From: a virus | Reading direction: 5' to 3' (one strand) | Virus record (IMG/VR): IMGVR_UViG_3300033143_005517 | Coordinates: 1 to 34,225 of that record | Length of the DNA: 34,225 nt | In this document: positions 829 to 34,121 of the stretch, piece after piece | Layout: every line of letters begins with the position of its first letter | Numbering within the stretch: the stretch's first letter is position 1 | Notes under the pieces: generated by a model | Told to the model about the DNA's origin: nothing | Seen by the model: only the letters and a program-made list of their open reading frames with translations | Databases searched by the model: none | Made by a program: the position numbers and the translations under genes

Positions 829-957
829 ATGCTGAAATTGATAGACGGAAAGATAAGGACATGGAATGTCCACGAGAAGAAAACAGTTCAAGCAACGCTT
901 GGCAAGTATTTCAAAGAAGGATTCGGAGAAGCATTAGTTTCAAGCAAGAATAGCTAG
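829..957 (+). CDS. Small hypothetical protein (42 aa) with a perfect Shine-Dalgarno
   Basis: ATAAGGAGG lies 8 bases before the ATG, the strongest ribosome-binding site in the window, which makes this short frame credible. The product begins MLKLIDGKIRTWNV and is basic and soluble, with no membrane segment. It sits between holin and small terminase, where phages often carry short lysis or regulatory peptides, but I do not recognise it. Its last codons lie inside the 5' arm of the hairpin at 926-969, so translation and hairpin folding would interfere. Confidence 0.65.
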   Translation: MLKLIDGKIRTWNVHEKKTVQATLGKYFKEGFGEALVSSKNS

Positions 958-969
958 CTAATGCTTTTC
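926..969 (+). terminator. Possible rho-independent terminator or attenuator before terS
   Basis: GAGAAGCATTAG (926-937) pairs with CTAATGCTTTTC (958-969), 12 bp including one G-U, around a 20-base loop. Pyrimidine-rich sequence with TTTTTT follows at 970-979. The loop contains the stop codon of the 42-aa ORF. It may reduce read-through into terS or protect an mRNA end. The T run is slightly separated from the stem, so strength is uncertain. Confidence 0.45.
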
Positions 970-1019
970 CCTATTTTTTAGGAAATTAGTGAATTAGATT
1001 ATTAGATTATTAATTTATT

Positions 1020-1448
1020 ATGGCAACTAGATTAGACGGAGAAAAAGATAACAGAGGAGGAACAAAACCTGGAGCTGGAAGACCTAAGGGGGCTATTTCG
1101 TTGGAAACAAAAAGGAAACAAGCGTTTGAAAAGTTATTTATTTCAGAAGTAAATAAAAATAAAAAGCCGATTATTGAAGCGTTAATGAAAAAATCAAAAG
1201 AAGGAGATGTTAGGGCTTTGACGGATATTTTAAATAGAATTGTAGGAAAGCCAACAGAGAAACTTGACCTTACTTCAAAAGGAGAACAAATTTTAGTAAA
1301 TGTCGTAAATTATAAGAATGACGGAGATAACAATACCATACCAGTTCAAGCCGAGAAAGCATCAGCTGGAGTTCTTGAAGAGCAAAGCCCGATTCAAGAT
1401 AGCGGTGTTTCACAGACGGGCGGGGAAATCCTCAATGGCTCTAAATGA
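1020..1448 (+). CDS. terS: Terminase small subunit (putative)
   Basis: 142 residues, of which the first ~90 look conserved: a basic Gly-rich N-terminus (GGTKPGAGRPKGAIS, an AT-hook-like G-R-P-K) then a helical segment with DVRALTDILNRIVGKPTE, typical of small-terminase and DUF5681-like proteins. Small terminases bind the packaging site and load the large subunit. Position directly before terL supports the call. The last ~43 residues (from about 1318) overlap terL in another frame and look unstructured. The upstream sequence is A/T-rich without a Shine-Dalgarno. Stop is TGA. Confidence 0.7.
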   Translation: MATRLDGEKDNRGGTKPGAGRPKGAISLETKRKQAFEKLFISEVNKNKKPIIEALMKKSKEGDVRALTDILNRIVGKPTEKLDLTSKGEQILVNVVNYKNDGDNNTIPVQAEKASAGVLEEQSPIQDSGVSQTGGEILNGSK

Positions 1449-6758: not shown

Positions 6759-7673
6759 ATGGCTGTTGGAACTACAACCACTGGCGCAAAAGCCCTCAAA
6801 CAATATTGGCATGATTTCTTTATTGAAAATCTTTACGATACTTTAGCTCTTAAAGGATTAACCCGAAAAGCTATTGTTCCTAAAGGTAATGGTAAAGTTG
6901 TTTGGTGGGTAGGGATTTCGAAAGGAAGCCCAGCTGGTGGTACTCTTAGTGAAGGTGCTGATCCTACTGCTCGTTCTGCAAACGCTACTCGTATTTCTGG
7001 TACTTTAACAGAATACGGAAATCTTCAAAAGAACTCTACATTATACATGGATACTTCTATGGATGGTGTTAAAGAAGCTATTTTGAAAGATTTGGCGATG
7101 GACGCTGCTAAGACCTTGGATGATGCTGTGCTTGCGAAAGCATTAGCGGGTGGAACTGTTATCTTCCCTGGTGGTAAATTACACAGAAGTGGTATTGTTG
7201 AAGCTAACACTGCAACAATCGCTGATGTGCGTAATGCCGTTAGGTTACTTCAACTTTCATCTGTCCCTAGATTCGCTGATGGTTTCTATGTAGGTTTGGT
7301 TCATCCAGACATTGCATATGACCTTCAAAGTGATTCTAAGTGGCAAGATATTGTGAAGTATAGAGACACTGTTAAGTACGATATTCCTGGTGAAGTTGGG
7401 AAGATTTGGGGTGTGCGTTTCGCAATCGCTCCGACTATTCCTGTTTTGGTAAATTCTGGTTCTGCTAATACTGATATTTATAGAACTTTAATCTTTGGTA
7501 AAGATTTTATAGGTCAATCAGAACTTGGTGGATTAGAAATTCATATCAATGAACCAGGTCGTGCTTCTGAGTTAGGTACATTTAATACTTATGGATATAG
7601 ATTTGTTATGTCCTCTGAGGTTCTTAGTGACCAAAAAGGTATTAGGCTCGAAAGCAATGCTACCAAAGCTTAG
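6759..7673 (+). CDS. Major capsid protein, N4-gp56 family
   Basis: 304 residues with the N4-gp56/HK97-fold layout: N-terminal helix (KQYWHDFFIENLYDTLALKG), the strand pair around GKVVWWVGIS, the loop GGTLSEGADPT, a spine-helix region (AILKDLAMDAAKTLDDAV), and a C-terminal A-domain ending GTFNTYGYRFVMSSEVLSDQ. It builds the icosahedral shell on the scaffold. It follows the scaffold by 31 bases. A hairpin after the gene could set its mRNA end. Codon use favours GCT and GGT, as expected for a highly expressed gene. Confidence 0.88.
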   Translation: MAVGTTTTGAKALKQYWHDFFIENLYDTLALKGLTRKAIVPKGNGKVVWWVGISKGSPAGGTLSEGADPTARSANATRISGTLTEYGNLQKNSTLYMDTSMDGVKEAILKDLAMDAAKTLDDAVLAKALAGGTVIFPGGKLHRSGIVEANTATIADVRNAVRLLQLSSVPRFADGFYVGLVHPDIAYDLQSDSKWQDIVKYRDTVKYDIPGEVGKIWGVRFAIAPTIPVLVNSGSANTDIYRTLIFGKDFIGQSELGGLEIHINEPGRASELGTFNTYGYRFVMSSEVLSDQKGIRLESNATKA

Positions 7674-7777: not shown

Positions 7778-9235
7778 ATGCCTAAAATATCTTGTATAAT
7801 TTCTACCTATAATCGCTCGTCTCTTTTAAAGAAAGCAATCAATTCTGTCCTTAGACAAACCCTTGAGGATTTTGAGCTTATTGTTATTGATGATTGTTCA
7901 ACCGATAATACAGAAAAAGTGGTAAAAAGTTTTAAGGACGAAAGAGTAAAGTATGTTAAAACTAAAGAGAATTGCGGACATGATGGTCAACCTAAGAATA
8001 TTGGTATCCGTTGTGCTACTGGTGAATATGTTTGTTTCCTTGATGACGATGATATGTATCGCAAGAAAGAGGCGTTTTTTATTATGTATAATTATTTGAA
8101 ACACACTGGAGCTGATGTAGGATATGGTGATTATATCACTAGGATTGAAGGAAAGAAAAAGAAAGAAGCTGGATGGTCAGTGGATTTTAATCCTATGATG
8201 CTGGCACAAAGAAATTATATTTCTATGTCAGTAGCTTTTGCCAAAAGGGAAAAGGTGGTTGAAGTTGGTGGATTTAATGAAGAACTGAAACAGTTCAAAG
8301 ATTGGAACTTATTTATGAGATTACATAAGAATGGTTGTCGTTTTATCCATGTTCCTGTTTTAATAACAGAAGTATATCAGCATGAAGGAACTATCAGCAG
8401 CAAGAACAAGCTGAAGTATGATGAAAATGGCAATTACATTCCAACCTTCAATCCAGCTGATTGTAAGATTTACGCAAACAAAACTATTATAGGAGAAAAG
8501 AAACCTTTGAAAGTGGCTATTTTTACTTTAACGATGGATCGGCTTGACTATACTAAAGAAATGTATGAGGCAATGAAGAAAACTGCTGGTTATGACTTTG
8601 ATTGGCATATTATTGACCAGCATTCAACGGATGGAACAGTGGAATGGTTGAAAGAGTTAGCGAAAAAGGAAAAGAATGTATTCCCATTATTCTTAAAGGA
8701 AAATCTAGGAGTAGCTGGCGGTTGGATGAAAGCGATTGATACTATTAGAGATTTGAAGAAATATGATATCGTAATCAAGGTTGATAACGATTCTTTGTTA
8801 ATTACTGACGGCTGGCTAGACGCTATGGTGGACTTATTTGATAGGAATAAAGGTTTAGTACTCAGTCCTACCGTAGAGGGCTTAGAGGGAACGCCAGGGG
8901 GCGTATTAAGGCAACGAATGGACGGACAGAGCCCGTATGTATCAATAAATGACAAAATACTGGGCGTAGTGCCTAATTTAGGTGGTATAGTGTTCGCTTC
9001 TTACCTTGAAATGTATAATGGATTTGAATTTCCAGAAGACCTTCCAGGAAACAAAGATTATTACTTATCTATGGCAGTGAAAGGAAAAGGATTTAGCTTA
9101 TTCTATATGGAAGAATATAATGTAGTTCACATGGATGGCTCTACTGGACAATTGAAGAAATATCCTGATTATTTTAAGAAAACTTTAAAAATACACAAGA
9201 ATGAAAATACTCCTAACGACAAACAAACTAAATAA
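7778..9235 (+). CDS. Two-domain family 2 glycosyltransferase
   Basis: 485 residues with two GT-A domains. Domain 1 (about 1-230) opens with ISCIISTYNR, has the VIDDCSTD nucleotide-binding motif and the metal-binding LDDDD at 89-92. Domain 2 (about 248-470) opens with KVAIFTLTMDRLD, repeats the pattern as IIDQHSTDGT and has DND at 336-338. Both would transfer sugars from nucleotide donors with inversion. Two domains in one chain often add two successive sugars. It begins the carbohydrate cassette after the capsid gene and overlaps the next gene by 35 bases. The acceptor is unknown. Confidence 0.85.
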   Translation: MPKISCIISTYNRSSLLKKAINSVLRQTLEDFELIVIDDCSTDNTEKVVKSFKDERVKYVKTKENCGHDGQPKNIGIRCATGEYVCFLDDDDMYRKKEAFFIMYNYLKHTGADVGYGDYITRIEGKKKKEAGWSVDFNPMMLAQRNYISMSVAFAKREKVVEVGGFNEELKQFKDWNLFMRLHKNGCRFIHVPVLITEVYQHEGTISSKNKLKYDENGNYIPTFNPADCKIYANKTIIGEKKPLKVAIFTLTMDRLDYTKEMYEAMKKTAGYDFDWHIIDQHSTDGTVEWLKELAKKEKNVFPLFLKENLGVAGGWMKAIDTIRDLKKYDIVIKVDNDSLLITDGWLDAMVDLFDRNKGLVLSPTVEGLEGTPGGVLRQRMDGQSPYVSINDKILGVVPNLGGIVFASYLEMYNGFEFPEDLPGNKDYYLSMAVKGKGFSLFYMEEYNVVHMDGSTGQLKKYPDYFKKTLKIHKNENTPNDKQTK

Positions 9236-10049
9236 TTACAGTGGGATGAGAAGATGGGTTTATACAGTGGCAAAAGAGCTGTCAAAAGAACATGAAGTAT
9301 CAGTGGCATCATTTGAAGATGGGTTGATGACAGAAAAGATAAAGCCGTTTGCCAGAGTATTGAATATAAAGGAAATGTCGGAAGAATTTGATTTAGCTAT
9401 TGTTGGTCAGAATGATTGTGTTCCTTTTGTGAAGGCAAAGAAAAAGATATTTATTTCGCACGGAACGACTCTTCCTTCTGAAGTTCCACCAGAAAAAGAT
9501 TATATCTTGGTAGCAGTGTCTGAAGAAGTAAGAGATTATTATAAAAGAAATGCTAAAGTAATTCTTAATCCAGTAGATATAGAAACATTTTCTTCTAACA
9601 GAGAATCTAGTCATAGTATAAAAAACGTATTATTTGTTTCTAGCTATGCTTCAACAGATATTCTAAGGCAAGTATGTTATGAAGAAGGACTGAATTATTT
9701 ACAGATTAAAAATGAATGGAACATTGAAATCTTTATGAATTGGGCTGATATGGTATTTTCTACCGCTAGGGGCTGTTACGAAGCAATGAGTTGTGCCAAG
9801 GAAGTGATAATTTTTAACGACAGAGAACCAGATGGAATTCCTCTGGCTGAAGGATTTGTCAGAGAAAGATATTATGAAGTAATTAGTCATAATTGCTCGG
9901 GAAGAAAAGAAAGAATAGTTTATGATAAAGAATTTATTAAAAAAGAAATACTGGCAAAGTATAGTGAAGAAGGAGGATCAAAGAATCGGGAAATAATCAT
10001 GAAACACCATAATGTTAAAGATATTTGTAACCAATTACTAAACTTATGA
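9201..10049 (+). CDS. GT-B fold glycosyltransferase (GT4-like)
   Basis: 282 residues. The N-terminus (MKILLTTNKLNNYSGMRRWVY) is the first strand and loop of a GT-B Rossmann domain. VAVSEEVRDYY and NPVDIETF are typical GT4 linker motifs. The C-terminal domain has a short acceptor-side region with STARGCYEAMSCAKEVIIF, matching the E-A-M-x-C-x-K donor-binding motif. It is short for the family (usually 330 or more). The start overlaps the previous gene by 35 bases and its stop overlaps the next start (ATGA), so translation is coupled. Confidence 0.78.
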   Translation: MKILLTTNKLNNYSGMRRWVYTVAKELSKEHEVSVASFEDGLMTEKIKPFARVLNIKEMSEEFDLAIVGQNDCVPFVKAKKKIFISHGTTLPSEVPPEKDYILVAVSEEVRDYYKRNAKVILNPVDIETFSSNRESSHSIKNVLFVSSYASTDILRQVCYEEGLNYLQIKNEWNIEIFMNWADMVFSTARGCYEAMSCAKEVIIFNDREPDGIPLAEGFVRERYYEVISHNCSGRKERIVYDKEFIKKEILAKYSEEGGSKNREIIMKHHNVKDICNQLLNL

Positions 10050-10591
10050 TTGAATCTAAAACTGGGGAATTCTTTCTTCCTTGTGATAGCGGAAGACATG
10101 AAATATCAGTAAATATGCAGAGATATTTATTTGCCTTACATTATTGTTCGGATAAGATAGTTTTAGACGCTTCTTGTGGAGCTGGACTAGGAACTTACTT
10201 TTATAGCTTGGTTGCGAAGAAAGTCATAGCGGTAGATAACAATGATGAAGCACTGGAACATGCCAAGTCATATCCGTATCCTAAAGATAATGTTCAATTT
10301 ATAAAAAGAGATTTAGAGAAAGACCTTTTACCAGAACACGATATTTGCGTTTCAATGGAAACAATAGAACACTTAAAAAACCCAGATTTTTTCTTGTCTC
10401 AGCTGAAAGGTGGTGAACTTGCTTTCTCAATTCCCCTTAATGCCTTGAAGATTTCTCCTGGATTTCATAAATATGATTTTGTGGATTTGGCAGATATTAA
10501 AGAAGTTGTTGGAAGATATTATAAAATTGAAGAATATTTAATTCAAGAAAATAAATGGATATATGGGCATGGAAATAAAATCGGTCGTTGA
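10046..10591 (+). CDS. Class I SAM-dependent methyltransferase
   Basis: 181 residues. SAM-binding motif I VLDASCGAGLGT (about 39-50), the acidic end of strand 2 at AVDNN (D64), and motif IV/post-I SMETIEHL are those of Methyltransf_11/23 proteins. In a glycan cassette such enzymes often cap sugars by O-methylation; the actual substrate is unknown. It starts in the ATGA overlap with the preceding glycosyltransferase and overlaps the next gene by 29 bases. Confidence 0.82.
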   Translation: MIESKTGEFFLPCDSGRHEISVNMQRYLFALHYCSDKIVLDASCGAGLGTYFYSLVAKKVIAVDNNDEALEHAKSYPYPKDNVQFIKRDLEKDLLPEHDICVSMETIEHLKNPDFFLSQLKGGELAFSIPLNALKISPGFHKYDFVDLADIKEVVGRYYKIEEYLIQENKWIYGHGNKIGR

Positions 10592-11924
10592 TATAATTGT
10601 AGTTAAGTATGGGCAGAAAGATATGGAATATCAATGTGCTGAAAGCGTGAAAATGTATACTGAACATCCATACAAACTGACAATTTTTGATAATTTTAAA
10701 ACAGATATTCTATTAACTGAACTTTGGAATAAACTTATTGATGACTCTGACTGTGAATATATTTGTTTGTTAAATTCAGACACTATCGTTACTCAAGATT
10801 GGCTGTCTAGAATGATGAAACATTTTGATAATGATACTGCTATAATTTCTTGTTCTACCTGTCATTGTCATAGCAATCAGAAACTAACTGAATACGAAGA
10901 GGATAGATTCAATCACAGATTTGCAGACAGTAATACAATAAAGAAAATTGGTAGGGATGTTTGGGAAAAATACGGAGACATAGTAAATGAAATAGCACAG
11001 CCATCTGGATTCTGTTATTTGTTAAGGAAAGACATTTGGAAAAAGCTCGGAAAGTTTGATGAAAGAATTCCATCTTATGGGAATGAAAGTGAATATAATT
11101 ATAGAGTTGAGCAGGCTGGCTATAAAATGAAACATGTTAAAGGAGTTTATATTCATCATCTTGGTGGAATGAGTTTCATTGATAAGAACTATCAAAGTAA
11201 AGAACAAAAAGCTGGAGGTTATTTATACAGAATACTGACTTCACCGATTAAGGTTTTGTCAGCAAAAGAAACAGTTTTAGAAATAAAGAAGTTTAAAAAA
11301 AGAATGGCTTATGTCAGATTCGGAGATGGTGAATTGCAGATGATGGAAGGATGGGAAGGTTACGCAGGAAATAATATAAACTGTCCTAAATTACAAGAAG
11401 AATTATTGGAAGCATTCCAAATAACAGATGCAGATTATAAGATAGGAATTGTTTATCCTTACGAAGACAAAAAGGAAAGAGAAATATTCAGAAATAGTAA
11501 CTGTGATTACATAGGAGCAATTTTAGACAATTCAAAAAGGAATAAATACTGTGATTCAGTTGCTCTGCATTATTTGAGTATAGTTGAACCAGAAATTGTC
11601 CAGAACTTTATTGAAAAAATAAATGAAAAAAGGATAATGTTGGTCGGTGGAAAGCATTTGGAAGAAATTAACAAGAAATTAAATGTAAAATGTTTCATAG
11701 AAACTCCTGTAACTCAGTCATATTATGAAATTAACAGATTCTATCCGAGAATAATTGAAAAGATTGAAGATGTGGACATTATAGTATTGGGAACTGGGAT
11801 TTGTTCAAAGGTAATTCAGAAAAGGATTTGGAAAGAAGGACATGAAGTCATTACTTTGGACTTGGGAAGTTTCTTAGATAATATGTTAGAAATAAAATCA
11901 AGACAATGGATAAATTTCAAATAA
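10563..11924 (+). CDS. GT2 glycosyltransferase fused to a GT-D (DUF1792) domain
   Basis: 453 residues. The N-terminal part (about 1-220) is GT-A like: VDIIVVKYGQ, the ICLLNSDT donor motif, and a late PSGFCYLLRKDIWKKLG acceptor-loop segment. The C-terminal part (about 235-450) begins KKRMAYVRFGDGE; RFGDGE (252-257) is the metal-binding signature of the GT-D fold first characterised as DUF1792 in glycosylation of a streptococcal serine-rich adhesin. The rest (GIVYPYED, IMLVGGKH, VIVLGTG) fits a Rossmann-like core. The fusion implies two sequential sugar additions. It overlaps both neighbours. Confidence 0.82.
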   Translation: MGMEIKSVVDIIVVKYGQKDMEYQCAESVKMYTEHPYKLTIFDNFKTDILLTELWNKLIDDSDCEYICLLNSDTIVTQDWLSRMMKHFDNDTAIISCSTCHCHSNQKLTEYEEDRFNHRFADSNTIKKIGRDVWEKYGDIVNEIAQPSGFCYLLRKDIWKKLGKFDERIPSYGNESEYNYRVEQAGYKMKHVKGVYIHHLGGMSFIDKNYQSKEQKAGGYLYRILTSPIKVLSAKETVLEIKKFKKRMAYVRFGDGELQMMEGWEGYAGNNINCPKLQEELLEAFQITDADYKIGIVYPYEDKKEREIFRNSNCDYIGAILDNSKRNKYCDSVALHYLSIVEPEIVQNFIEKINEKRIMLVGGKHLEEINKKLNVKCFIETPVTQSYYEINRFYPRIIEKIEDVDIIVLGTGICSKVIQKRIWKEGHEVITLDLGSFLDNMLEIKSRQWINFK

Positions 11925-12424
11925 AGTATTTAGATCATATGGAAAGAAAAACGAAACAGTTAAAGGACGGAAGCAATGCTCCTTTTAATGAGCAGGTAAT
12001 GAGTGGATTTACAGAAGTGCTGAATACTATAACAAATAGAAGAAGTAGAAGAGTTTTCAGGGAAAAGGTGGTTGACGATGAGTTGAAGTTAATCATAGAA
12101 AGTGCTAACAGAGCTCCTTCAAGTTGTAATCGGCGTGGAGTGTCTCTAAAAGAAGCACCAGAGGATTTAATTCCATTATTGGTAGGTGGAGTCGGATGGT
12201 GTGACAAAGGGACTGTGCTGGCGTTCTATGCGGATATGACAGCTTACAAATCACCATATGAAAAGGATTTTATGCCTTATCTGGATACGGGGTTTATGGC
12301 ACAGAATATTTGTTTGCTTTGTGAAGTTATGGGATTAGGATGTTGTTTCATAAATCCGAATACACATAATAAATATAAGTCAGAGCATCTTTTAACAGGA
12401 GCAATTTCAATCGGTAAAATATAA
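11906..12424 (+). CDS. Nitroreductase-family (FMN) protein, short C-terminus
   Basis: 172 residues. ITNRRSRRVFREKVVDDELK (42-61) is the FMN-phosphate-binding start of nitroreductases, followed by ESANRAPSSCN and, later, DTGFMAQNICLLCEVMGLGCCFI, the dimer-helix region of the family. Members reduce nitro groups, quinones or flavins, and some act in sugar or cobalamin chemistry. Here it ends at AISIGKI, where most members continue past an IGYP motif, so the C-terminal arm is missing or divergent. It overlaps the GT2-GT-D gene by 19 bases and lies 3 bases before a glycosyltransferase. A redox enzyme is unexpected here and its substrate is unknown. Confidence 0.7.
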   Translation: MDKFQIKYLDHMERKTKQLKDGSNAPFNEQVMSGFTEVLNTITNRRSRRVFREKVVDDELKLIIESANRAPSSCNRRGVSLKEAPEDLIPLLVGGVGWCDKGTVLAFYADMTAYKSPYEKDFMPYLDTGFMAQNICLLCEVMGLGCCFINPNTHNKYKSEHLLTGAISIGKI

Positions 12425-12427
12425 TTT

Positions 12428-13138
12428 ATGTCTAAAGAAAATCCTAAATTTAGTATAATAATTGGAATGTATAATCAGCTGCAGTATTTGCCAAGACTGA
12501 TTGAAAGTTTAAATAATCAGTCGTTCAAAGATTTTGAAGTTATTTTTTGTGATGATAAATCAAATGATGGCACTAAGGAATTCTTTCATGCAGAACCAGA
12601 ATTTCAGTTTGAAGCAAGATATAAAAGACCTTTTTTCAAGAAGCATTTAAGTGGAATGATGAATATAGGAATTAAGGAAGCTAAAGGAGATTATTGTGTA
12701 TTCATTATGGGTGATTCATTTCCAGAGACGAATTATCTTGAGATATTAAATAATCATATCAATGAAGAAACTATAGTGTGCGGTATTAAAGTTCAAGTGG
12801 ATGGAGAAAGAGCAGTTGATGTTGACTGGAGAATAGCTAAGCAGTCCATACCACAACATGAAGCTATAATTATAAATGAACCTTATAATGCTTTGACTGG
12901 AAACGGATTAGCAATTCCAAGAAGTGCTTTAGTAAAATACGGAGGATGGGATGAGCATATTAAGAAGTATGGAGGTGATGATACTTTATTAATAGGCAAA
13001 TTCTATTTCAAAGGTTATCTTTGCAAGTCAGTTCCTCAATTAGTCCTTTACCATAATTGGCACAAAGGACAAGAAACTCCTAAGGATACTTCAAGGTACT
13101 GCGAAAAAGTATTAACTAAACTATTTTATGGAAAATAA
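12428..13138 (+). CDS. Family 2 glycosyltransferase
   Basis: 236 residues, a single GT-A domain. FSIIIGMYNQLQYLPRLIES and IFCDDKSNDGTKEF are the nucleotide-binding motifs, and IMGDS takes the DxD place. GNGLAIPRSALVKYGGWDE is the usual acceptor-loop strand with the family's G-G-x-D/E motif. Inverting transfer from a nucleotide sugar is expected. The ATG follows the previous stop closely and the end overlaps the deacetylase-like gene by 11 bases. Confidence 0.82.
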   Translation: MSKENPKFSIIIGMYNQLQYLPRLIESLNNQSFKDFEVIFCDDKSNDGTKEFFHAEPEFQFEARYKRPFFKKHLSGMMNIGIKEAKGDYCVFIMGDSFPETNYLEILNNHINEETIVCGIKVQVDGERAVDVDWRIAKQSIPQHEAIIINEPYNALTGNGLAIPRSALVKYGGWDEHIKKYGGDDTLLIGKFYFKGYLCKSVPQLVLYHNWHKGQETPKDTSRYCEKVLTKLFYGK

Positions 13139-13781
13139 AAAAACTAAACGTTATTATCTTGATGTCCATGATTTTGGATTTCTTATGCCTGGGATGGATG
13201 ATATCTTAAGGTTGAAAGAAATTATTCCAGACCTTAAAATAACTTGTTTTACAATACCTTTCCCGAAGGAGTTCTTTCTTCCAGAGAATCAAAAACATTT
13301 CAAGATTGAGAAATATAAGAAATGGGCAAAAGTCATTAACAGTTACGACTGGTTGGAAATAGGTTTTCACGGATTTGCTCATACGCATAATGAAATGAAT
13401 TGTGATTATGACAAAGCAATAACAATATTGAAGGGGTCTGAGAATTTATTTAAGAAAGTTGGACTGAATTATAAAAAGATATTTTGTGCTCCTTATTGGC
13501 AGTATTCGTACGATGCTTTAACAGCGTTAAGAGATAGAGGATATATTATTGCTATAGATAGAAATCATGTAAGAGAAGTTCCTGAAGGATCTAAAGTATT
13601 TATTTATAATCATTCTTTGGAAGAACCGTTTCCAGATTTAGACAAAGTAATTAGTCATGGACATGTTGGACATTCTCCTAATGTAAAGAATGATTTAGAA
13701 AGTTGTTATCCAAATATAATTTTAAATATTAAATCTGATGCAAAATTCGGATTTTGCAGTGAATGCGTAACTCAAAAATAG
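13128..13781 (+). CDS. Polysaccharide deacetylase-like protein (NodB/DUF2334 type)
   Basis: 217 residues with carbohydrate-esterase family 4-like motifs: YLDVHDFG (10-17) at the TFDDG position, GFHGFAHTH (79-87) for the metal-binding H-x3-H, and CAPYW (120-124) for the R-x-P-Y motif; SHGHVGH near 175 would supply the late histidine. Such enzymes remove N- or O-acetyl groups from sugars. In this cassette it may tailor the glycan built by the neighbouring transferases, or act on host wall polymer. No signal peptide, so action is intracellular. Some motif positions differ from classical CE4, so activity is not certain. Confidence 0.68.
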   Translation: MENKKTKRYYLDVHDFGFLMPGMDDILRLKEIIPDLKITCFTIPFPKEFFLPENQKHFKIEKYKKWAKVINSYDWLEIGFHGFAHTHNEMNCDYDKAITILKGSENLFKKVGLNYKKIFCAPYWQYSYDALTALRDRGYIIAIDRNHVREVPEGSKVFIYNHSLEEPFPDLDKVISHGHVGHSPNVKNDLESCYPNIILNIKSDAKFGFCSECVTQK

Positions 13782-13822
13782 TTTTAATTAATAATAATAA
13801 TAAATAGAAAGGAAACAAGCTT

Positions 13823-14008
13823 ATGTCAAAAGCGACTAAGAAAAAGAAAACAGAAGTTGAAATGCCAAAGCCAAAACAGTCAAAATTACGAAAAGTAATT
13901 TTAGAGACAGATGGTAATATGGTAAGAGTTTCAGTTAATGAAACATCGGGAAATTTGGAATTAGTTTCAATGCTACAGGCGGTGATAGGTTTAATTGCTA
14001 AAAGTTAA
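13823..14008 (+). CDS. Small hypothetical protein (61 aa)
   Basis: Basic Lys-rich N-terminus (ATKKKKTEVEMPKPKQSK), then a strand-like segment (KVILETDGNMVRVSV) and a short hydrophobic helix (VSMLQAVIGLIAK). It has a clear AGAAAGGA ribosome-binding site 11 bases before the ATG, unlike its neighbours. Function is unknown. Two bases separate it from the next glycosyltransferase. Confidence 0.62.
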   Translation: MSKATKKKKTEVEMPKPKQSKLRKVILETDGNMVRVSVNETSGNLELVSMLQAVIGLIAKS

Positions 14009-14010
14009 TA

Positions 14011-15069
14011 ATGGAAAAAAAGGAAAAGAAAAAACTAAAAATTTATTGCATCCATAATGGCTCGGGGTCAAGATATTATAGATTAATACCAGAGTTAAAG
14101 TATATGCAAGAACAAGGACATGAAGTAATACTAAAAGACAGTGATGATAAAGAAATGACTCAGCATATTGAATGGTCTGACATTGTAATTCTTGAAATGG
14201 TTTATTCAGTAGGTATTGTTAAGATGTGTAAAAAATTAGGAAAGAAAGTTGTTTTTGAATGTGATGATTTAGCGCATATAGTTCCTAAATCTCATTATAG
14301 TTATGATGAAATGAAAGGAATTAAAAATAGAATAAAGTGGTGGAAAGAAATAATCCAAGTACTAAGACGATGTGATGGTTTCATTACTACAAACAAAATC
14401 CTTAAGCGTAAATATGGCTGGCTGGCAAAGAAAAGTTTTGTCTTTGATAATTACTGTGATTTGCCTCATTGGTTGAAAGAACACAAGCCAAACAGGTCAA
14501 ATGAAATCCGTTTGCTCTGGGCTGGGTCAATGAGCCATAAAGGAGATTTGATAGCATTCAAACCAATAATGAAAAAGGTTTTAGAAAAGTATCCACAAGT
14601 AAAATTCATTTATGTTGGTGATGGTGGAATTAAAACAGATGATTTACAAGCAAAGTTTATTTATGGAGATGATTTATGGGAAGGACTTCCTGGCAATCGT
14701 GAAAACATTCTAGGAGTTCCTGGAAACATTTTCCCATATAAGTTAGCGGCTCTTCAAGCTGATATAGCTATAGCTCCTCTTGAAAAGAATTTCTTTAATT
14801 CTTGTAAGTCAACTTGCAAGTATTTAGAATATGGAATCAATAAAATTCCAGGAGTATATTCAGCTCATCACTATAAAGATGTTATCGTAAATAGACGTAC
14901 TGGAATTTTAGCAGATACTCCAGATGACTGGGTTGCTGGAATCAGTGAATTGATAGAAAGTGAAGAAATGAGAAAAAAGATAGGTGAAGATGCTTATAGA
15001 GATGTAATCAATAATCATAATATGAAAGATTATGTTCACGAATGGGAAGAATTTATTTTATCACTTTAA
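14011..15069 (+). CDS. GT-B fold glycosyltransferase (GT4-like)
   Basis: 352 residues. The N-terminal domain (KIYCIHNGSGSRYYRLIPELK) has the first strand and Gly-rich loop of GT-B enzymes. VVFECDDL and ITTNKILKRKYG lead into the linker. The C-terminal domain has LLWAGSMSHKGD, KFIYVGDGG and IAIAPLEKNFFNSCKSTCKYLEYG, the last matching the donor-binding E/S-x3-K-x3-Y segment of GT4-like proteins. It closes the carbohydrate cassette before virion genes resume. Confidence 0.82.
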   Translation: MEKKEKKKLKIYCIHNGSGSRYYRLIPELKYMQEQGHEVILKDSDDKEMTQHIEWSDIVILEMVYSVGIVKMCKKLGKKVVFECDDLAHIVPKSHYSYDEMKGIKNRIKWWKEIIQVLRRCDGFITTNKILKRKYGWLAKKSFVFDNYCDLPHWLKEHKPNRSNEIRLLWAGSMSHKGDLIAFKPIMKKVLEKYPQVKFIYVGDGGIKTDDLQAKFIYGDDLWEGLPGNRENILGVPGNIFPYKLAALQADIAIAPLEKNFFNSCKSTCKYLEYGINKIPGVYSAHHYKDVIVNRRTGILADTPDDWVAGISELIESEEMRKKIGEDAYRDVINNHNMKDYVHEWEEFILSL

Positions 15070-28833: not shown

Positions 28834-29958
28834 CTAGTTAGTTAAATTATTGTCCAACCCCCAGTTATCCCAACCCTTCACTGGCTGTCTGCTAAATAAT
28901 TCTATTCGTGGAAGTTTGCCGACCAACTGGACTATTTTTTCACGAACAATGTCTGGCTTCTTAGAATGTTCTTCAATCGGCGCTTCTATTACCTGTGAAA
29001 CAGACCTGTCTATTCTTTCTGTTTTGCCTTTAGTGGCTATCAAACAAAGTTCTGAATTGCTTCTAGTCCAGCTTCCCAATCCTAAGAAGTGGCTGTCCTT
29101 ATTCTTATTTTTCTTAATCCAGTTAAACCCACAGGTAGAATAGGTAAAACCCCACGCTTTTATTACTTCAAACGCTTTATCCAGAATAGGAAAAGTCACC
29201 CAAAGAAATAAAATACAGTTTTCATCAGCGATATTCTTGACTGGAACTTCACAGATTTCTTCTATCGTCATTCCTTTGTAATGAAGCGATTGATTCTTTC
29301 TTCCGCCAGTGAAATAAGACCAAGCTGGATCTGCCAGAATAATATTGTATTTATTCTTGGTAGCATAAATATCTGTGAAACTATCTTTCTGTTTTCGTCC
29401 TTTAAACTCTTTAGCTTTTTCTTCCACTGCTTTTAACTTTTCCCTTCTTTTTACTTCTTGATAAGCATCATTAACATTTCCAGTTTCATCCATTTTCTCA
29501 ATTAGTTCCTTATCTCCAAAATCTATAACTTTTTCTGCATTCAATAATGTTGTTCTTCCTATGTCAAATCCTTTGGCTATCTTTTCATCTGTCCTACCCT
29601 TGTCCAAATTGGACGAGGGTCTGCCAATTTTCATTCTCTTTTCTGCTTCTTTCTTTTTCAAGGGTTCAATAGCTTTCTTAATTGCTATCATTTCTGTAGG
29701 AAGAAATTGTTTCCTAACAACATTTTCATCATATTCTCCTTTTAGGATGTCATTAATTTTAACAACATTTACATCAATTTCTTTCCAGCCAAGTTCTTTA
29801 CAAGCCAGCAACCTTCTTTGTCCAGCGATTAAATTATTTTTCTCGTCAACGACTATCGGTTGTAAAAGCCCGATTTCTTTAATAGAATTTTTAAGTGTTT
29901 CTAGTTCGCCGATGTCTTTCCTAAATCTTTTTCTTATCTTTATTTTATTTATTTCCAT
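28834..29958 (-). CDS. ParB-like / MT-A70 adenine methyltransferase fusion
   Basis: 374 residues. Residues 1-95 are a ParB/sulfiredoxin-like domain with AGQRRLLACKELGW (45-58); a helix-turn-helix region with IAKGFDIGRTTLLNAEK follows. Residues about 200-360 are an MT-A70 methyltransferase with the catalytic DPAW (210-213), the FLWVTFP segment and SNSELCLIATKG. These enzymes methylate adenine N6 in DNA. In phages the fusion is common and may protect phage DNA from restriction. The start has AGGAAGG upstream. The gene is 13 bases downstream of a PD-(D/E)XK-like gene. Confidence 0.87.
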   Translation of the reverse strand: MEINKIKIRKRFRKDIGELETLKNSIKEIGLLQPIVVDEKNNLIAGQRRLLACKELGWKEIDVNVVKINDILKGEYDENVVRKQFLPTEMIAIKKAIEPLKKKEAEKRMKIGRPSSNLDKGRTDEKIAKGFDIGRTTLLNAEKVIDFGDKELIEKMDETGNVNDAYQEVKRREKLKAVEEKAKEFKGRKQKDSFTDIYATKNKYNIILADPAWSYFTGGRKNQSLHYKGMTIEEICEVPVKNIADENCILFLWVTFPILDKAFEVIKAWGFTYSTCGFNWIKKNKNKDSHFLGLGSWTRSNSELCLIATKGKTERIDRSVSQVIEAPIEEHSKKPDIVREKIVQLVGKLPRIELFSRQPVKGWDNWGLDNNLTN

Positions 29959-29971
29959 AAGTTTATCCTTC

Positions 29972-30565
29972 CTAGATTAAATTAAGAAGTACTTCACTAT
30001 CCTCCTTTGATATTAAGGGGGCGTTTGCGGGAACTGGATCGTCGCTTATTATTTCTTCAGGTTCTTTTTTAGCTGACTTCCAATGAAAGGAATAGAATCC
30101 TTCAAATTCAGATAAAGGAACTACTCTAAACGCTGATTGCCAAGTGCTGTCAGAATCATTTCTGTAAGATGTTGTATTACTATGCAGTTGATAATTTTCT
30201 TTAATTTCTTCGTATCTGTCATAAAGCTGTTTAGTTCTTTTAAGAAATATCATCGTTCGGGTTTCATCTGAAACAAATACAATCCAGTTCGCTTCAGATT
30301 TATACCACCATCCTTCTTTTTTTATGCCAAGTTCTTCATTGTAGTCAGCGTAGTCTTCAATGAATAGTTTCTCGTCATCCTTATAATTATTTTTAACTTC
30401 ATATCCTTTCCCTCCAGCAACAACATAATCAATGTCTTTTTTCTGATATGCTGGATTTTTAGAAACATCTTTGAACGGAATGTTAAAGAAGTTAAGATAA
30501 TCATTCTCAAAAATGTTTTCTGCTATCAATCCTTTGTTTCTGTCATCGTCAAAATCTGTAGCCAT
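29972..30565 (-). CDS. PD-(D/E)XK nuclease-like protein
   Basis: 197 residues. A helix with E16, then KKDIDYVV (D46) and KGYEVKNN (E56, K58) match the D-x(n)-E-x-K nuclease motif; EWW-like aromatic segments and a later strand (NWIVFVSDETRTMIFLK) fit the core fold. Related proteins are restriction-type enzymes, resolvases or recombination exonucleases. Next to an adenine methyltransferase it might form a modification-linked pair, though phage repair nucleases look the same. No Shine-Dalgarno is seen before the ATG at 30565. Confidence 0.65.
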   Translation of the reverse strand: MATDFDDDRNKGLIAENIFENDYLNFFNIPFKDVSKNPAYQKKDIDYVVAGGKGYEVKNNYKDDEKLFIEDYADYNEELGIKKEGWWYKSEANWIVFVSDETRTMIFLKRTKQLYDRYEEIKENYQLHSNTTSYRNDSDSTWQSAFRVVPLSEFEGFYSFHWKSAKKEPEEIISDDPVPANAPLISKEDSEVLLNLI

Positions 30566-32551: not shown

Positions 32552-32653
32552 TTACACTGTTTCTAGGGGTTCAAATCCCTTTTCTGCTGATGTTAAATCT
32601 TCATTTTCTTGCTCTTCGGAATACTGATAGCATTCCTCATTAAAATTTTCCAT
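32552..32653 (-). CDS. Tiny acidic hypothetical protein (33 aa)
   Basis: ATG at 32653 with AGAAAGGA 7 bases upstream; 33 codons to TAA. Very acidic (MENFNEECYQYSEEQENED), with no membrane segment. The clear ribosome-binding site and place between the RHH gene and the 211-aa gene support it. Small acidic phage proteins sometimes mimic DNA, but there is no evidence here. Confidence 0.55.
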   Translation of the reverse strand: MENFNEECYQYSEEQENEDLTSAEKGFEPLETV

Positions 32654-32679
32654 GATGTTTCCTTTCTAAGTTAGATTAA

Positions 32680-32817
32680 TTATTTTTCATTTTTTACAAT
32701 TTGTTTAATTGCTTCCACAATTTTTTCGTTCATAGAGATATTCTGACGAACGCAAATTAATTTTAACTTTTTGCGAAGCTCTTCTGAAAGAAAGATTCTA
32801 AATACTTTGTCTTCCAT
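32680..32817 (-). CDS. Ribbon-helix-helix (Arc/CopG-like) DNA-binding protein
   Basis: 45 residues: a short strand KVFRIFLSEEL, helix 1 (RKKLKLICVRQN), the S-M-N-E-K turn and helix 2 (IVEAIKQIVKN) give the RHH pattern. Arc-type dimers bind DNA through the strand pair. It has an AGGAAGG site and is the first gene after the leftward promoter at 32856-32883, so it probably regulates that promoter or the facing one. The repeats at 32958-32968 and 32986-32995 are possible operators. Confidence 0.8.
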   Translation of the reverse strand: MEDKVFRIFLSEELRKKLKLICVRQNISMNEKIVEAIKQIVKNEK

Positions 32818-32855
32818 GTTGTTGTCCTTCCTAGTAGTTTAATTATTATAGTCCT

Positions 32856-32883
32856 ATTATAGCAAATATAAGAACCTTGTCAA
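32856..32883 (-). promoter_or_regulatory. Consensus leftward sigma70 promoter
   Basis: On the reverse strand TTGACA (32883-32878) and TATAAT (32861-32856) are 16 bp apart with an extended TGC before the -10. It drives the RHH gene and the leftward block. Confidence 0.87.
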
Positions 32884-32957
32884 TAGCCCCAAGTATCGCT
32901 AAGATTAGCCATAATAAAATACTTTCTTTTTCTACACCCATAGAATATAAAATAAAA

Positions 32958-32995
32958 ACCCCCTTAAAATTGCCTGTGGATAAGTACCCCCTTGA
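32958..32995 (+). promoter_or_regulatory. Direct repeat ACCCCCTT in the divergent promoter region
   Basis: ACCCCCTT occurs at 32958-32965 and 32986-32993, 28 bp apart. The second copy overlaps the -35 of the rightward tRNA/ncRNA promoter. Their position suggests operator half-sites, for example for the RHH protein, but this is only inferred. Confidence 0.35.
32975..32983 (-). promoter_or_regulatory. Perfect DnaA-box match
   Basis: TGTGGATAA on the plus strand reads TTATCCACA on the minus strand, the 9-mer DnaA box. It is one isolated site between divergent promoters and may be chance, but tandem repeats lie 1 kb to the right. Confidence 0.4.
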
Positions 32996-33019
32996 CACGA
33001 TTTTTTAATCTGCTATACT
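32992..33019 (+). promoter_or_regulatory. Strong rightward promoter for tRNA-Trp and the large structured RNA
   Basis: TTGACA (32992-32997) and TATACT (33014-33019), 16 bp apart, with an extended TGC before the -10. Transcription would start near 33026, about 50 bases before the tRNA, and nothing terminator-like separates the tRNA from the RNA that follows. Confidence 0.85.
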
Positions 33020-33055
33020 GATAATAATATTTTCCTCATTGGTGTTTCCAATGTG

Positions 33056-33074
33056 TCCGCTCTGTCAGAGCGGA
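33056..33074 (+). other. GC-rich hairpin just 5' of tRNA-Trp
   Basis: TCCGCTCT (33056-33063) pairs with AGAGCGGA (33067-33074) with a 3-base loop, or as 7 bp with a 5-base loop. No T tract follows, so it is not a terminator. It may guide processing of the tRNA 5' end or protect the transcript. Confidence 0.55.
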
Positions 33075-33077
33075 TAT

Positions 33078-33149
33078 ATCTCATTAGTTCAACTGGTAGA
33101 ACATCGGTCTCCAAAACCGAAGATGGAAGTTCAAATCTTTCAGGAGATG
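33078..33149 (+). tRNA. tRNA-Trp (anticodon CCA)
   Basis: A full cloverleaf can be drawn. The acceptor stem is ATCTCAT with AGGAGAT, one A-G mismatch at the sixth pair. The D arm is GTTC/GAAC with GG in the loop. The anticodon stem TCGGT/ACCGA has loop CTCCAAA, anticodon CCA (33111-33113). The T arm is GGAAG/CTTTC with loop TTCAAAT. Discriminator is G and CCA is not encoded (CAA follows). The middle closely resembles bacterial tRNA-Trp. TGA is still a stop in this window, so it serves ordinary UGG codons. Confidence 0.85.
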
Positions 33150-33150
33150 C

Positions 33151-33910
33151 AAAGCTTGACAAGATAATCAAAATGAATTAAACTAATAATAATGAAACGA
33201 AACACAACTGCTACGACAAAAAGACTTTTTTCAACCATTGGCGATTACATTCGCCAAAAGCGATTGGATGTTTGTCGTAGAACATCGTTTCGTCGCCAGT
33301 GTTTGAAAGAAGTTTTTTTTATTTTGAAAGTTGATTATAGTTGTAATTAACTTTTAGAATGAAAGTTCTAACAATACAATTAAACTGACAGGATTGGTAG
33401 GCGAACCCTAGAAGCCACCTGTTGGATGCTTTTATTAAATTCTAGGGATGGGTGATAGCAGTAAATGGAATCACCAGCTGGCAGAAATGCTAGGATGCTA
33501 TCATGGAGTTGCTAGAACACGGCTAATAATGTGTTCGCCATGTCAAAGAAACACACTTTTTACCTTAAGAAATGCAATTTAAACCAACAGACTATCTATG
33601 TCATTAAGCTAATTCAAGTTATGGCATAGCTGTATCTCATGTCCACATCAACGTGGTCGCATCTAACGGAGGTTCGTAAGAACCCTGAGGAGAACTTGAT
33701 AATATCCTGCCGAGACAAAACGGAACAACAGGAATTGCTAAAAGGTTTGATACTTCTACTTAATTTCAGAAAACGCACAAATTATTTTCTGAAATCACAC
33801 AATATAGAATAACTATATTATAGTAAGAAGACAGGCTTTATGGAGACTTCTTGCCAGTCAATTTCCACCAAAAAAGAGAAAATACACGATCTCTGATACT
33901 TCCAAGCTTT
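33151..33910 (+). ncRNA. Candidate giant structured RNA (~760 nt), GOLLD/ROOL-like in setting
   Basis: No ORF of note in any frame, but helices fill the region. A closing pair AAAGCTTG (33151-33158) / CAAGCTTT (33903-33910) brackets it. Inside: 33194-33200/33285-33291, 33211-33220/33271-33280 (10 perfect bp), 33240-33244/33251-33255, 33326-33337/33344-33355, 33453-33460/33496-33503, 33515-33520/33531-33536, 33596-33604/33621-33629, a GTAA-capped hairpin 33671-33684, 33705-33712/33721-33733, 33763-33773/33785-33795 (11 perfect bp) and 33801-33807/33813-33819. CCCTAGAA (33406-33413), in a hairpin loop, pairs with 33440-33447 as a pseudoknot. Size, phage origin and adjacency to a tRNA match GOLLD and ROOL RNAs; class is not proven. 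Confidence 0.75.
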
Positions 33911-33938
33911 TCTAAACACACACATAATGATATTAAGA

Positions 33939-34043
33939 ATTATAGGAACTTGTACTAACAGATTCTAAAATTATAAGAACTTGTACTAACAGATTCTAAA
34001 ATTATAAGAACTTGTACTGAAATTCTTACTGATAGATTCTAAA
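33939..34043 (+). repeat. 31-bp tandem direct repeats
   Basis: Copies at 33939-33969 and 33970-34000 differ at one base. A third copy, 34001-34043, carries a 12-base insertion, and a partial fourth begins at 34044. Each contains GAACTTGTACT and ends GATTCTAAA. AGAAT and ATTCT at the unit borders could pair. There are no spacers, so this is not CRISPR. Possible iterons of a replication origin or binding sites; no function can be assigned. The remaining gap to 34121 shows nothing else. Confidence 0.8.
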
Positions 34044-34121
34044 ATTACGGGATGTTACGCTTATAGGTTAATTAGGGAAATTATTTTGTGCGATTTTTGC
34101 GTTTAATTAACAATAAATAAT

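Follow-up and report, generated by a model that had tools for sequence, protein, structure and literature searches.

What is made from the roughly 760 bases that follow the tRNA-Trp gene of this uncultured phage? The original prediction for the window (the whole stretch of 34,225 nt analysed, IMG/VR record IMGVR_UViG_3300033143_005517) was a giant, ornate non-coding RNA joined to the tRNA. The tRNA-Trp, with a CCA anticodon, is present at 33078-33150 (+), and the 762 nt after it fold on the + strand at −203 kcal/mol (z = −8.5), with 0/20 shuffles equally low. Nowhere in the record is folding stronger than at 33201-33400 (+), where a 200-nt window scores z = −8.0; the 330 windows taken from the rest of the phage average −0.23 (sd 1.1). 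The folding signal ends at both edges (z = 0.2 for 33915-34120 and 1.3 for 32600-32990), and the RNA region folds better on the + strand than on the − strand. With this fold statistic, and with no conserved protein frame found over the RNA region when the window was compared with the related phage G031, the predicted structured non-coding region is borne out.

A homologue and its conserved core

The homologue was reached through the capsid protein (6759-7673): two alignment-based scans brought up some 16 fragments, all from a single phage group. One of them extends to the locus and carries a homologous RNA: G031 (IMGVR_UViG_3300031920_000321; 31,353 b, uncultured), whose capsid protein is 84% identical. 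Its RNA lies at ~29,908-30,475 of the reverse complement (L266 ~879-1446, minus strand), and its core aligns over 373 columns with 65% of positions identical (E = 9e-31 in a local 2.9-kb comparison). The RNA is syntenic in the two phages, following a sigma-70 promoter and diverging from a ribbon-helix-helix-like gene. DNA searches of phage and plasmid records with the RNA sequence returned tRNA or chance matches only, and exact-pattern scans for RNA motifs gave no matches, or chance matches in coding sequence. The terminase and a 211-aa neighbour, used as protein queries, did not find near relatives, and a third member was also missing from the records scanned with models R1 and R2, 50 for each model with overlap between the sets. 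The RNA, ~570-670 bases long, is thus known in two related uncultured phages.

G035 (IMGVR_UViG_3300025087_000022), the other long relative, had no match to the RNA. Its own strongly folding region was considered as the same RNA and set aside, being a repeat-flanked tRNA-like element instead. In this element (~13,860-14,380, minus strand; L268), direct and inverted copies of CTGCCCAACTAAGCACCGAT, with arms up to 50 nt and a fold z of −11, surround two candidate tRNA-like cloverleaves, neither of which is called by ARAGORN. Elsewhere in the window, glycosyltransferase, methyltransferase and similar genes (7778-15069; named by eye from translations) form a block between the capsid and tail genes that is mostly kept in relatives.

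Close relatives also carry group I introns (RF00028; L113:4679-4910, L115:6351-6582 and L112:5973-6192). Those of L113 and L115 lie inside the major capsid gene, and the capsid gene of L110 is split by ~650 nt near the same codons. Together with a conserved AACAGACUA in the RNA that resembles, by eye, the group I R element, these introns would suit a self-splicing element, such as a decayed group I intron. We regard this origin as highly improbable: RF00028 has no match in either member, though it recognises the introns of L112, L113 and L115, and the RNA is intergenic, not inside a gene.

Pairing was tested on two unadjusted MAFFT blocks (A5 and A6), using ungapped pairs in the two phages. 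All 48 aligned pairs are standard in both; 12 have changed, nine of them on both sides and three by G-U, and none is broken. Sliding the 3′ partners as a control left 28-51% of positions paired and produced no double changes. Simulated independent substitution at the observed rate kept all pairs in 0/100,000 sets; as with our other simulated p-values, this is less than a full significance test, since it comes from two sequences and a structure chosen on those same sequences. Given the alignments only, RNAalifold returns nearly all of the same core helices. An alignment with related phage contigs had been proposed as a check on the original prediction; the one built with G031 shows compensatory changes in core helices and no broken pair among the 48.

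The core (all coordinates on the + strand) begins with a conserved pseudoknot at 33388-33447, in which a hairpin (33388-33392/33418-33422 and 33400-33402/33414-33416) presents loop 33406-33413 for pairing with 33440-33447. The pseudoknot that had been predicted is real and conserved in G031; CCCUAGAA/UUCUAGGG in one phage and CUAUAGAA/UUCUAUGG in the other differ by one compensatory and one G-U change, with no pair broken. A long-range helix (33424-33429/33659-33664, spanning 33424-33664) forms in both phages, its 3′ strand within the conserved AUCUAACGGA. The stems of a three-way junction at 33452-33504, namely 33452-33460/33496-33504, 33466-33468/33474-33476 and 33478-33483/33488-33493, carry three, one and one double changes, respectively, and the last is capped by a GNRA loop (GAAA in the window, GCAA in G031). 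A helix at 33507-33512/33574-33579 (33507-33579), formed from different sequences in the two phages, encloses hairpin 33515-33520/33531-33536, which has the conserved loop GCYAAUA and in which 5/6 pairs have changed on both sides, all kept. The conserved AACAGACUA precedes another hairpin, which the two phages form from differing sequences (33596-33629; 33596-33604/33621-33629 with inner stem 33607-33610/33617-33620), which displays CUAAUUC at its tip.

The most conserved block, on which model R1 is based, follows at 33633-33733, with four double changes and no broken pair. It consists of helix 33633-33636/33698-33701, hairpin 33643-33646/33653-33656 with loop AUCAAC, a GUAA hairpin at 33667-33687 and helix 33705-33712/33721-33733; RNAalifold recovers the block unguided, except for 33633-33636/33698-33701. 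The GTAA tetraloop hairpin noted at the outset (33671-33684) is real and conserved in G031. Near the 3′ end, both phages share GACAGGCUUU (33830-33839). Loops whose sequence is the same in both are GGCGAACNNUAGAAGCC, GUAA, AUCAAC, AUCUAACGGA and GACAGGCUUU. Other predicted helices fared less well: an 11-bp hairpin at 33763-33795 is without a counterpart in G031, and two helices from the single-sequence fold, 33392-33401/33850-33859 and 33441-33445/33512-33516, were rejected for the same reason.

Promoters, RNA start and neighbouring genes

The original prediction held that the tRNA and the RNA are made as one transcript. The strong promoter that this requires is present before tRNA-Trp at 32992-33019 (+; 11/12 consensus match, TG). 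The leader after it (33019-33077; fold z = −4.5) contains two hairpins at 33038-33073 (+), seen as inverted repeats in the sequence (CATTGG/CCAATG and CCGCTCTG/CAGAGCGG). The adjacency of tRNA and RNA, however, is absent in G031, where tRNA-Trp lies between structural genes ~17 kb from the RNA (G031:18127-18198, minus). A perfect sigma-70 promoter, TTGACA-16-TATAAT, stands directly before the G031 RNA, with no tRNA there.

A weaker promoter-like TTGACA at 33156 had been noted with the caution that it could move the 5′ end to about 33190. It was found as TTGACA-17-TAAACT at 33156-33184 (+; 10/12), by position the counterpart of the G031 RNA promoter, and homology with G031 agrees with the caution. 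The predicted outer closing pair (33151-33158/33903-33910, AAGCUU) is without a counterpart in G031 and was dropped as part of the RNA. Because neither the tRNA link nor the AAGCUU helix is conserved, the RNA probably starts near 33190. We place it at 33191-33860 (+), with the 5′ end taken from promoter homology and the 3′ end uncertain. Most simply, the RNA would be driven by a promoter of its own, and the tRNA unit would have been added locally in the window phage. Of the giant ornate RNA joined to a tRNA, then, the ornate RNA stands on its compensatory changes, and the joining is confined to the window phage.

In both phages an ATG frame opens on, or close to, the predicted start of the RNA and spans the 5′ domain, with 52 codons in the window (33192-33350) and 48 in G031 (L266:1294-1440 (-)). 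Their peptides are dissimilar, and a peptide product from the 5′ end found no support.

The gene divergent from the RNA (32680-32817, −) encodes, from its translation, a 45-aa ribbon-helix-helix-like protein that is 37% identical (E = 3e-5) to a 48-aa protein at the matching place in G031. The promoter of this divergent operon is TTGACA-16-TATAAT with an extended -10 (32856-32883, −), and in G031 a promoter matching at 11/12 positions points the same way. Strong sigma-70-like promoters thus stand back to back between the RNA and the ribbon-helix-helix-like gene in both phages. Nearby, CTAGGGGTTCAAATCCCTTTTCTGC at 32563-32587 resembles a tRNA T arm and 3′ end without the rest, and may be what is left of a tRNA, or an attachment site.

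These neighbours raise the question of whether the RNA serves replication, copy number or partition in a plasmid-like phage, acting with the divergent ribbon-helix-helix protein. The ParG-like gene is divergent in both phages, a ParB-like N-terminal domain fused to an MT-A70 adenine methyltransferase is encoded in the same operon region (28834-29958, −), and three 31-nt direct repeats (AATTATARGAACTTGTACTAACAGATTCTAA, the third copy partial) come directly after the window RNA (33938-34030). Such a role nevertheless seems unlikely to us, as inspection by eye showed no similar repeats following the G031 RNA, the Pfam ParG match of the G031 48-aa protein is weak (E = 0.0045) and below the curated cut-off, and no replication initiator was seen in the window.

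Two predicted folds of the 5′ domain

Upstream of the core, two folds are predicted for the RNA in both phages. Fold A (33194-33291, +) is a nested pair of helices, H1 (33194-33200/33285-33291) and H2 (33211-33220/33271-33280), of 16-17 bp in total and of different sequence in the two phages. H2 is the 10-bp stem of the original prediction, real and conserved in G031. Nested helices as long as H1 and H2 arose in 3/2000 and 24/2000 shuffles (one set per phage). Fold B (33220-33320, +) is a 25-26-bp hairpin (33220-33234/33303-33317 and 33236-33245/33292-33301) with a small inner hairpin, H4 in the window (33267-33273/33280-33286), and its 3′ side runs into a U tract (U8 at 33313-33320 in the window, U7 in G031). 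Overlap between the main stems of A and B is one base at most: the last base of H2 is the first base of B and the last base of H1 adjoins the 3′ strand of B, with no linkers in either phage. A 21-bp A/U-rich hairpin (33318-33363, +) follows in the window phage only and is absent in G031.

When the transcript ends before the 3′ strand of B (until 33291 in the window), A is the minimum-energy fold (−27.4 kcal/mol in the window, −21.7 kcal/mol in G031). Once B is complete, B is better by ~12 kcal/mol in the window (−42.3 vs. −30.4) and by 12.6 kcal/mol in G031 (−36.5 vs. −23.9). These computed energies fit a co-transcriptional switch, from A to B. It is also possible that A and B are both formed, as a pseudoknot or a strand-swapped dimer, instead of switching. 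A more specific version would be a new RNA-only assembly, in which H1 and H2 are intramolecular, the B strands are paired with a neighbouring molecule or make a two-helix pseudoknot with no linker, and the order of transcription builds an oligomer; we consider this unlikely.

A cis-acting leader is the main competing explanation. The RNA would sense something and control downstream genes through the A/B switch and U tract, in the manner of an attenuator, a put-like antitermination RNA or a riboswitch of giant size. The bistable 5′ domain with its U7-8 tract is conserved in both phages, and the scan called no terminator after the RNA and ahead of the following gene in the window or in G031. However, the U tract comes early in the RNA, ahead of its conserved core; in G031 a promoter-like sequence (10/12) separates the RNA from the gene that follows; and the downstream gene start in the window and the G031 gene look unlike each other (by eye, unaligned). 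We therefore hold a cis-acting leader to be a possible but doubtful explanation.

Comparison of the two phages shows a conserved predicted core and a conserved 5′ domain with two predicted folds. The explanation that we favour, with moderate confidence, is a stand-alone structured phage RNA that belongs to no catalogued family, made from a sigma-70 promoter in an intergenic region that serves as a regulatory hub and combining A-to-B gating with a scaffold role. Fold A (H1 and H2) would form first during transcription; as the last strand emerges, the computationally more stable fold B hairpin, with its U-tract end, could replace A. The A-to-B step would then gate either the amount of full-length RNA or its maturation, and the finished RNA may be a folded scaffold, by analogy with GOLLD, ROOL and ARRPOF. 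Gating by termination is weakly supported, because hairpin B is rich in A/U at its base and the terminator scan calls none there in the window or in G031.

Relation to known large RNAs

The Rfam search that had been suggested for GOLLD, ROOL and other large RNAs was run with all 4227 models of Rfam 15. At E ≤ 10, neither the window RNA nor the G031 RNA had a convincing family match; the window gave only the tRNA, and low E-values of G031 for microRNA families reflect hairpin B, with scores far below gathering. The ROOL covariance model had no match at E ≤ 10 in the window or G031, whereas the same tool detected the ROOL positive control in pMP118 at 130 bits. The GOLLD model likewise had no match at this threshold in either member (with ROOL, not GOLLD, as the positive control), and ARRPOF and OLE, assuming that both families are among the 4227 models, also had none.

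A divergent GOLLD or ROOL RNA would account for the size, phage origin, pseudoknot and, in the window phage, adjoining tRNA, all of which are features described for these RNAs (PMC12286853). Given that the models fail at E ≤ 10 while the ROOL control is detected, and that the tRNA adjacency is not conserved, we think this very unlikely. Of the two options first offered, a divergent GOLLD or ROOL member or a new class, the second is the better reading: a previously uncatalogued class of large phage RNA with two known members. Both are long, non-coding and pseudoknotted with compensatory changes, as expected of large ornate phage non-coding RNAs, a functional kind rather than a family. The known classes of large structured phage RNA are few; another one, unrelated to them and supported by comparison, would widen the set and provide a second lineage in which the function of such RNAs can be tested. 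For function, the conserved 5′ domain with its two predicted states offers a concrete, testable handle.

Transcription attenuators and riboswitch expression platforms have competing helices, the later of which is a hairpin followed by a U tract. With its two predicted folds, the 5′ domain would resemble them in this respect in both phages; here, in contrast, the switch precedes a large conserved core and the base of the hairpin is A/U-rich.

Among large RNAs, ROOL forms a homo-octameric RNA cage and GOLLD a 14-mer cage. That two large structured phage RNA classes form RNA cages has been reported (PMC12286853). Like ROOL (RF03087), which is 520-660 nt and often near tRNAs, our RNA is large, phage-borne and ornate with a pseudoknot (PMC12286853, PMC5643018). 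In contrast to ROOL, it has other helices and no sequence or covariance-model match, and its tRNA is not adjacent in G031. With GOLLD it shares a phage origin, large size and multiple domains, and in the window it lies downstream of a tRNA, as does GOLLD env-38 (PMC12286853); GOLLD, however, is often >800 nt and has a universally conserved 3′ region, whereas the conserved core here is central. Finally, ARRPOF is likewise a large structured RNA of a mobile element, and it is described as a ring-like homodimer (PMC12641628); our RNA has no match to its covariance model.
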